From Rhodobacter sp. TJ_12 (GTDB lineage Bacteria > Pseudomonadota > Alphaproteobacteria > Rhodobacterales > Rhodobacteraceae): a stretch of DNA of 52,041 nucleotides. Every line of letters begins with the position of its first letter. Position 1 is the first letter of the stretch. The DNA lies in NCBI RefSeq assembly GCF_020023995.1, contig NZ_NRRD01000023.1, forward strand, positions 1-52,041, given 5' to 3'. Positions 5,216 through 34,702 of this stretch are shown piece by piece. The notes beneath the pieces are model-generated. The model was given only the letters and a program-made list of their open reading frames with translations. It did no database searches and was not told the DNA's origin. The translations under genes and the position numbers were made by a program.

Positions 5216-5291
5216 TGGTGAGCCGTACAGGATTCGAACCTGTGACCCGCTGATTAAAAGTCAGCTGCTCTACCAACTGAGCTAACGGCCC
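5216..5291 (-). tRNA. tRNA-Lys (anticodon UUU)
   Basis: On the minus strand the 76 nt fold into a full cloverleaf: acceptor GGGCCGT/ACGGCTC with one G-U pair, D-arm with GCTC/GAGC, and an anticodon stem CTGAC/ATCAG region closing a loop CTTTTAA with anticodon TTT. The T-arm reads CACAGGTTCGAATCCTGT with the standard TTCGA loop, and the gene encodes its own 3' CCA. It reads AAA and AAG lysine codons. Confidence 0.97.
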
Positions 5292-33798: not shown

Positions 33799-34419
33799 AT
33801 GCGCTACCTGCCCGGCATTCTTGCCATGGCCGCCATTGTCGTGGCCTCTAACATCCTCGTGCAATATCTTTACGGCCAATGGCTGACGCTCGGGGCCTTT
33901 ACCTATCCGCTGGCCTTTCTGGTCACCGATCTGACCAACCGGCTGCAAGGCGCGCGCGCCGCGCGGCTGGTCGTGGTGTCCGGCTTCGTCGTGGGCGTGA
34001 TTTGTTCGCTGATCGGCTCGCAGATCATGGGCGAATTCGGCCCGCTTGTCAGTTTCCGCGTCGCGCTGGCCTCTGGTCTGGCCTTCCTGACCGCGCAGCT
34101 GACCGATGTTTCGATCTTTAACCGGCTTCGCGCGCGCGGCGGCTGGTGGAAAGCGCCGCTGGTCTCGACCCTGATCGGCTCCAGCTTGGATACCGTGGTC
34201 TTCTTTACCGTGGCCTTTGCTGCGCAGTTGGCGTTCCTTGAGCCGGCCAATGATGTGAGCTGGGCCAATGAGGTTTTGCCGCTGTTGGGGATGGGACCGG
34301 CGGTGCCGCTTTGGGTCTCGCTTGCGCTGGCGGATTGGTGCGTAAAAATTACGCTTGCAGTCGTTGCGCTGGTGCCGTTTCGCGCAATTATTTGGCGGCT
34401 CTCGCCAAAGGTTGCGTAA
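33799..34419 (+). CDS. yhhQ: queuosine precursor transporter (YhhQ/VUT family)
   Basis: YhhQ-type carriers import queuine precursors (preQ0/preQ1) for the queuosine modification of tRNA wobble positions. The 206-residue protein has about six transmembrane helices and the family features FTYPLAFLVTDLTNRLQGA near residues 33-51 and SSLDTVVFFTVAF near 130-142. The start follows a weak site after the tandem hairpins. No queuosine-synthesis gene is adjacent. Confidence 0.9.
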   Translation: MRYLPGILAMAAIVVASNILVQYLYGQWLTLGAFTYPLAFLVTDLTNRLQGARAARLVVVSGFVVGVICSLIGSQIMGEFGPLVSFRVALASGLAFLTAQLTDVSIFNRLRARGGWWKAPLVSTLIGSSLDTVVFFTVAFAAQLAFLEPANDVSWANEVLPLLGMGPAVPLWVSLALADWCVKITLAVVALVPFRAIIWRLSPKVA

Positions 34420-34489
34420 TTTCACTTGTCATACACCAAATCTGTGCCACCCTTTGCATATCGGCAACGCATTGAAAGGAGGTGGTCCA

Positions 34490-34546
34490 TTGTCTAGAGT
34501 GATAGTGGAGAGAGGTGTCGGGACAGTGATGGGGGCCGAGGCCTGA
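34490..34546 (+). CDS. possible 18-codon ORF with extended ribosome site
   Basis: A TTG start at 34490 follows an almost perfect, extended Shine-Dalgarno (AAAGGAGGTG) and opens 18 codons ending in TGA at 34546. The peptide would be short, with charged and Val/Gly-rich residues and no hydrophobic segment. The same ribosome site is locked in the 11-bp helix of the surrounding RNA. It may be a leader peptide or a chance reading. Confidence 0.3.
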   Translation: MSRVIVERGVGTVMGAEA

Positions 34547-34627
34547 GGGCAGACCCAAAGGTTTCATCCATCGCTGGGACGGAGGATCTGATCCAGACCC
34601 TAACCGGACCATCTCCGTAGATCTCGG

Positions 34628-34662
34628 GGGCCGCAGGGAAAAACCCGCGGCCCTTTCTCTTT
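34628..34662 (+). terminator. first intrinsic terminator upstream of xseB
   Basis: GGGCCGC-A-GGG (34628-34638) pairs with CCC-GCGGCCC (34644-34653), one A bulged, with loop AAAAA and then TTTCTCTTT. Confidence 0.8.
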
Positions 34663-34676
34663 GCGACTTATCGACC

Positions 34677-34702
34677 AAGGGGGCGTTTCCGGCCCCCTTT
34701 TT
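34677..34702 (+). terminator. second intrinsic terminator upstream of xseB
   Basis: AAGGGGGC (34677-34684) pairs perfectly with GCCCCCTT (34692-34699) and ends in a T5 run. With the previous hairpin it makes a double terminator, so xseB-ispA-dxs should have its own promoter in the remaining 63 bp or depend on read-through. Confidence 0.85.

Follow-up and report, generated by a model that had tools for sequence, protein, structure and literature searches.

A candidate rreR-type small mRNA with an extended Shine-Dalgarno sequence and a matching anti-Shine-Dalgarno arm in Rhodobacter sp. TJ_12

A short RNA gene of about 200 nt appears to lie between two genes of the window (the whole 52,041-nucleotide stretch of Rhodobacter sp. 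TJ_12 analysed here), with an 18-codon open reading frame (ORF) behind a Shine-Dalgarno (SD) sequence that matches the entire 3' tail of 16S rRNA. Its features are those of one small gene, not of a purely non-coding RNA. Comparison with relatives and predicted folds shows an SD, a start codon, a short ORF with conserved ends, a putative terminator, and, before the terminator, an anti-SD arm predicted to pair with the SD. The best overall explanation, at a probability of roughly 0.65, is a small alphaproteobacterial mRNA of the rreR type within the family of Rfam CC2171, rreB, and rreR, with ribosome access gated by the RNA itself. That the locus is an rreR-type member of this family is very probable; the gating mechanism derives from folding models and is tentative, with less than even odds.

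Layout of the locus

The first-pass annotation had proposed a structured RNA with a 15-nt site complementary to the 16S rRNA 3' end, closed by a long-range helix. Such an RNA is borne out, probably with a promoter and terminator of its own (Table 1); the site proved to be 16 nt long, and the start codon and ORF immediately 3' of it had been overlooked. The reading frame begins TTG TCT AGA directly after the SD and ends GCC TGA; most relatives start with GTG or ATG, the locus with TTG at 34490. Read directly from the sequence, the 11-bp helix pairs GGAGGTGGTCC (34478-34488) with GGACCATCTCC (34606-34616) and includes one G-U. The inner helix, described as 8 bp between AGTGATGG (34525-34532) and CCATCGCT (34568-34575), also with one G-U, is actually 9 bp long. 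Of the two consecutive terminators suggested, the first is present in RNA folds as a GC stem from about 34628 followed by TTTCTCTTT, and relatives in the 57-row alignment have a GC stem and then a T-rich stretch wherever the aligned part extends that far; the second is the only one flagged by a simple terminator scan, for which 1.2 hits are expected by chance. The core pattern AAAGGAGGTGNTCCA has a single match in the 3.58-Mb assembly, and its reversed control has 0.

Table 1 Features of the small gene and its flanks
Feature	Position	Strand	Evidence
Promoter-like element: TTGTCA (34426-34431), 16-nt spacer, CACCCT (34448-34453)	34426-34453	+	Conserved in relatives
Extended Shine-Dalgarno GAAAGGAGGTGGTCCA, 16 nt with one G-U, complementary to the entire 16S 3' tail	34474-34489	+	Sequence reading, pattern search
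18-codon ORF, TTG start, TGA stop, peptide MSRVIVERGVGTVMGAEA	34490-34546	+	Start and stop kept in relatives
Hairpin around the start codon, 34486-34494 with 34501-34509	34486-34509	+	Single fold; also RNAalifold, 57 relatives
Inner 9-bp helix, 34524-34532 with 34568-34576, 5' arm within the ORF	34524-34576	+	Covariation in 26 near relatives
CTAACC motif immediately 5' of the anti-SD	34600-34605	+	AAC invariant in the 57-relative alignment
Anti-SD arm GGACCATCTCC, similar to the 16S tail, predicted partner of the SD	34606-34616	+	7-bp core paired in 57/57 relatives
First intrinsic terminator, putative end of the RNA	34628-34662	+	RNA folds; relatives
Second terminator-like hairpin, before xseB	34677-34702	+	Terminator scan (34677-34699)

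The 16S rRNA end of the window's own genus was not found in the assemblies searched, one search pattern being strict, and the 3' tail was therefore drawn from general knowledge, relatives, and an oligonucleotide. With the tail assigned in this way, the 16 complementary nt lie directly 5' of the short ORF, which is the arrangement (16 nt or more) by which rreR is recognized. The assumed tail is backed by 24 matches in other members of the class that read on like antisense 16S, and by a Sinorhizobium meliloti oligonucleotide in the part of PMC6943124 available to us.

Relationship to known RNA families

A search of Rfam at gathering thresholds returned no match at the locus. By E-value the best match is RF01867 (CC2171), covered over its full length (model positions 1-159) at 26.8 bits (E = 8e-4), below the family's gathering cut-off of 75 bits, and it is the only RF01867 match at E 0.01 in its own 3.58-Mb genome. 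Relatives score 46 (L022), 43 (L021), 38 (L029), 36 (L026), 35 (L025), and 27.8 bits (L027); those at 36 to 46 bits (L021, L022, L026, and L029) appear to bridge the gap between the locus and RF01867. All eight further loci given (from Bradyrhizobium, Sphingomonas, Mesorhizobium, Rhizobiaceae, Chelativorans, Parvularculaceae, Defluviimonas, and Gemmatimonadetes) also match over the full length below the cut-off, at 27.8 to 37.6 bits (E 2.3e-4 to 0.06), and among the 15 loci searched the cut-off is passed by Methylobacterium, Bosea, and a Caulobacterales MAG. Across the class, 45 of 190 genomes have RF01867 matches, 7 above the cut-off; among 14 control genomes Caulobacter vibrioides and Deinobacterium chartae match, one above the cut-off.

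CC2171, a Caulobacter sRNA, resembles the locus in its order of SD, start, and terminator and in aligning over the full length. It differs in being filed as an sRNA gene and in having its own closing helix, formed by the first codons with the segment before the terminator; this helix is not aligned at the locus, where SD/anti-SD pairing takes its place. In the part of PMC5596092 available to us, the Mesorhizobium huakuii sRNA candidate MH_s33 is a CC2171 match. We treat CC2171 as a probable member of the same wider family, although the locus formally fails the Rfam threshold.

The locus is, we presume, the rreR of Hahn et al. 2017 (RNA Biol 14:1353; cited in PMC7298713). There, rreB was reportedly described as a small mRNA of Bradyrhizobiaceae with a 14-aa ORF and a 17-nt SD that binds 30S subunits and is weakly translated, and rreR is said to be its 18-aa counterpart in the Rhodobacter/Roseobacter lineage. 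The stability of rreB RNA is likewise said to be ribosome-dependent, and the same three traits are attributed to rreR. Three Bradyrhizobium loci (L150, L161, and L167) encode 14-aa peptides of the form VSxxKRCHLAGIAR. The locus shares with rreR and rreB an extended SD complementary to the 16S 3' end and a very short ORF (18 aa in rreR, 14 aa in rreB), but departs from them in its TTG start and in a G instead of an A within the SD. To our knowledge, the abstract of Hahn et al. 2017 includes neither the anti-SD 3' arm nor its conservation. The RNA had at first been put forward as unannotated, and this stands only in part: it formally fails the Rfam threshold, but the full-length sub-threshold CC2171 match and the presumed identity with rreR link it to a known family.

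Cuckoo RNAs and alpha-r14 carry CCUCC motifs that imitate the 16S anti-SD, with the mimic exposed. The locus also mimics the anti-SD, but its arm is predicted to pair with its own SD. StsR of R. sphaeroides was considered as a conceivable identity, and we encountered nothing linking it to the locus. As described in the parts of PMC7298713 and PMC10117765 available to us, rnTrpL/peTrpL of S. meliloti is a small dual-function RNA with a 14-aa ORF; it is comparable as a small alphaproteobacterial RNA with a very short ORF, but according to those parts it is leaderless, derived from a trp attenuator, and contains Trp codons, none of which applies here. The available portions of PMC10117765, PMC5082802, and PMC10783764 make no mention of the locus gene. 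The finding is already known in part, since the family has been described before; neither the tie to CC2171 nor the conservation of the anti-SD arm was encountered in the literature searched.

Distribution and copy number

The SD-start-TC pattern AAAGGAGGTGNTNNNDTGTC is present in 149 of 198 genomes of the bacterial family, one copy each, and its reversed control in 0. A strict A-form, AAAGGAGGTGATCCN{1,2}DTG, which does not fit the window's own G-form, is found once each in 66 of 398 genomes of the phylum, 65 of these in the window's class; the sole match outside the class is G717:C44:103152-103170. A DNA search with the locus gave matches in 29 of 61 related genomes, its own included, and one of the matches (L028) lacks an SD and probably reflects chance similarity in the terminator. 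Single copies are usual, with two RF01867 matches in 6 of the 45 matching genomes. Genome G048 has two RF01867 matches, at C1:2921849-2922077, which is also its strict-pattern match, and at 805104-805255; these are possible paralogues of different types.

Among the matches listed are two contigs from Gemmatimonadetes MAGs with the same SD-start layout, L098 (QKDC01000030.1, 7833-7852) and L139 (PWWP01000014.1, 169-188). Their ORFs have 20 codons and L-WAS-R in common, and L098 scores 35.6 bits to RF01867. Either the family extends beyond Proteobacteria or these are mixed bins. Three viral contigs (L211 904-923, L216 819-838, and L217 413-432) have a full 16S-tail SD before a 58-aa ORF (VSSCGSKRMRSGG...), which looks unrelated to the rreR/CC2171 family.

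The locus scan covered at least 118 stretches, of which 80 were named. For comparative analysis we used 191 non-redundant loci, excluding viral loci (L209 on) and those with flanks shorter than 70 nt upstream or 230 nt downstream of the SD. Peptide pattern and length assign 75 of the 191 to a Rhodobacterales type; 57 of these were aligned (A1), and 26 of the 57 make up the alignment of near relatives (A2).

Conservation of the open reading frame

Counts of starts and stops in the 75 Rhodobacterales-type loci are circular, because an ORF-length filter and, for most loci, a pattern demanding a start codon were used in choosing them. The fairest test of the link between SD and start is a search with the bare 14-mer AAAGGAGGTGATCC, in which no start codon is demanded. 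It has 32 matches in 142 genomes of the class; 24 are antisense-16S-like, and all remaining eight continue N-[AGT]TG, five of them as N-[AGT]TGTC. The stop codon was examined free of any length demand in 77 relatives, filtered on their first eight residues. A stop stands at codon 19 in 73 of them (TGA 37, TAG 24, TAA 12, and TGG 0), and in-frame stops in codons 9-17 occur in 0 rows, against 10 rows in each of the shifted frames. Eighteen codons are also found in 47 of the 53 family loci that were not selected by ORF length, so that by both counts the 18-aa ORF is conserved in the Rhodobacter/Roseobacter lineage, as in rreR.

These counts bear on the possibility of a non-coding sRNA, as Rfam files CC2171 (type 'Gene; sRNA'), in which the SD-like stretch would act as an untranslated decoy for 16S tails or 30S subunits. 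The strong predicted pairing to the 16S tail and the absence of visible amino-acid-level selection would suit such an RNA, but a start codon recurs at the same spacing after all eight non-rRNA copies of the 14-mer, the stop at codon 19 is kept by way of three different stop codons, and ORF length is mostly constant inside clades. We consider this reading improbable. A ribosome-binding decoy was among the functions suggested at first; its purely non-coding form is unlikely, given the 18-codon ORF behind the site and the conservation of that ORF's start and stop.

The 18-aa peptide could itself be the product, a functional microprotein whose amount is merely tuned by the RNA structure. The constancy of the 18 codons in loci not chosen by length and the recurrence of a core like SRVILERGVGT among family members speak for a microprotein, but pN/pS is 0.81-0.93 in the ORF and 0.72-0.79 in shifted frames, the peptides of other clades bear no apparent relation to it (14 to 35 aa in most cases, with two outliers of 44 and 59), and the conserved core partly overlaps paired RNA segments. 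An excess of variation at third positions was not seen in the ORF. A selected peptide is unsupported, its pN/pS being no lower than in shifted frames, and a functional microprotein is an unlikely account of the locus. By these comparisons the ends of the ORF appear conserved, and the peptide seems to be kept measurably no further than the RNA, with no detectable amino-acid-level selection.

Pairing of the Shine-Dalgarno sequence with the anti-SD arm

Compensatory changes in the 11-bp helix had been named at the outset as a check on it, and the outcome is mixed: double changes are absent (0) from the 26 near relatives, in which 9 of the 11 pairs are invariant, while the core pairing is kept. 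All 57 rows keep a 7-bp SD/anti-SD core paired; three of its pairs vary, each on a single side and always without loss of pairing. In the set of 75 each position is paired in at least 72 rows, for which a shuffle test is powerless because the SD side never varies there. No double changes were found in this core among the 57 rows, and kinship together with the 16S constraint on the SD could therefore explain part of its conservation. The eighth pair, the only position free on both sides, is paired in 46 of 75 rows (mean 39.7 and maximum 43 in 500 shuffles), with 28 A-C mismatches among the 75.

RNAalifold on the 57 relatives predicts the SD/anti-SD helix, the start-codon hairpin, and a short UCGG/CCGG helix, with double changes in 2 of 19 pairs and a small covariation term (-0.78). 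The inner 9-bp helix is paired in 99.6% of cells in the 26 near relatives, with double changes in three pairs, and in 72.1% of cells in the 57 rows. Both helices jointly beat 500 of 500 shuffles on all five measures in the near relatives; in the 57 rows, a one-column slide of both helices gives 41 double-change cells versus 20 for the actual structure. The long SD/anti-SD helix, as far as alignments can tell, appears to hold up in relatives.

Folding and accessibility of the SD

The fold energy of 34470-34665 has a z of -4.07, and that of 34460-34662 a z of -2.99, with 1 of 200 shuffles folding as well. In the 75 Rhodobacterales-type loci the SD core GGAGG has a predicted unpaired probability of 0.03 in the full RNA, 0.62 in the 5' part alone (the RNA up to 12 nt beyond the stop codon), and 0.32 with the 3' part shuffled; the corresponding values for the window are 0.01, 0.56, and 0.25. 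When the T-rich terminator tail is included, the SD pairs with that tail in the minimum-energy fold, and a GGAGA within the ORF becomes the partner of the anti-SD; the SD core is predicted to be hidden in both minimum-energy folds. The predicted hybrid with the 16S tail is about -28.8 kcal/mol, and that of a short canonical SD about -12.5. Opening the whole 14-nt SD would cost 10.6 kcal/mol in the full RNA versus 8.0 in the 5' part, and 9.9 versus 9.4 in the window; measured this way the gate is a weak one, the end of the SD being already held by the start hairpin. The odds of gating are lowered accordingly, since the 3' arm adds little to the cost of opening.

In folding models the SD lock appears to be a trait of Rhodobacterales. 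In CC2171-type (n = 44) and MSS-type (n = 27) loci, the SD core is more accessible with the native 3' part than with a shuffled one (0.33 vs 0.23 and 0.22); the core is slightly more closed in Sphingomonadales (n = 23; 0.20 vs 0.27 shuffled), and a clear difference from a shuffled 3' part was not seen in Bradyrhizobium-type loci (n = 7). The longest contiguous SD helices come to 9.3 versus 7.5 shuffled in Rhodobacterales; the excess is just slight in MSS-type (7.9 versus 7.3), CC2171-type (7.6 versus 7.3), and eight 14-aa loci (8.4 versus 7.6), and there is none in Sphingomonadales. On the folds of other clades, a common lock across the class was rejected. The clades share an SD joined to a start codon rather than any single fold.

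Two arrangements outside Rhodobacterales were also observed. A 20-codon member (L178) contains the exact 16S tail GGATCACCTCC in its 3' part, which suggests that an anti-SD arm arose outside Rhodobacterales as well. In Bradyrhizobium members (L161 3642-3768), TCACCTC in the ORF can pair with the SD, and a downstream CCAGCGAG can pair with an overlapping stretch, possibly forming a two-state switch.

Genomic setting

A transporter-type gene (Pfam Vut_1, 33799-34419) lies upstream of the locus, and xseB (from 34766), ispA, and dxs lie downstream. Within the 45 nt searched, 62 of 75 relatives have an element with at least 4 of 6 matches to TTGACA (TTG demanded). In 59 of those relatives it stands 48-51 nt ahead of the SD. 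A conserved CAnnCT follows a 16-nt spacer; transcription is predicted from this to start near 34460. A generic promoter scan did not report this element and gave one weak site at 34472-34500 instead, over the SD and ORF. Elsewhere in the window are a serC leader RNA (RF00517; 12475-12526, + strand) and a tRNA-Lys(ttt) (5216-5291, - strand).

In 68 of 74 Rhodobacterales-type loci, a queuosine-transporter-type gene on the same strand lies no more than 300 nt upstream. In other clades an upstream transporter-type gene is found at 2 of 110 loci. This neighbour pattern across clades makes the RNA look like an independent unit. A riboregulated leader of the next genes had been offered as one of its possible roles, and a cis-acting leader or attenuator of the xseB-ispA-dxs operon would fit the RNA's position on the same strand directly 5' of xseB in most of the window's genus. 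Against such a leader, xseB, ispA, or dxs follows in just 17 of the 70 Rhodobacterales-type loci with enough flank (15 of the 17 belonging to the window's genus) and at 2 of the 107 other loci, and a terminator and a second terminator-like hairpin stand in between. With the downstream neighbour not conserved, cis-regulation of the operon was rejected as very unlikely.

A possible mechanism and its implications

If the rreR-type mRNA is gated as the folds suggest, the SD core would be open in the nascent RNA, giving a 30S subunit a kinetic window in which to bind before the anti-SD arm is made. The 3' arm, once made, would close the SD, and a free 30S subunit could still win by strand exchange from an unpaired AAA, by virtue of the long 16S complementarity. 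The 5' arm of the inner helix is located in the last codons of the ORF, and a ribosome at the fixed stop, 12 nt past that arm, would have to open the helix. Through SD closure, strand exchange, and helix opening, the RNA would thus read 30S availability, and translation would alter its fold and lifetime. This proposal fits the ribosome-dependent RNA stability reported for rreB. We infer that what matters is the act of translation, in competition with an internal mimic of the 16S tail.

A further step is speculative and, in our judgement, a long shot. The RNA could act as a sensor of free 30S subunits that is common across Alphaproteobacteria, as a rule with one copy per genome, and in which the 16S tail and its RNA-borne copy compete for the SD. 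If the 30S subunit prevails, the freed anti-SD arm or the refolded RNA would act on other messages or on ribosome supply; translating to the fixed stop would be the signal and the peptide a by-product.

CC2171 (a Caulobacter 'sRNA'), rreB (Bradyrhizobium), and rreR (Rhodobacter) look like one alphaproteobacterial gene family, which suggests that an entry classed as an sRNA gene is better treated as a small mRNA. With a peptide that seems irrelevant and an SD that matches the whole 16S tail, the family would lend itself to clean tests of how translation and RNA decay depend on 30S availability, SD strength, and RNA folding.
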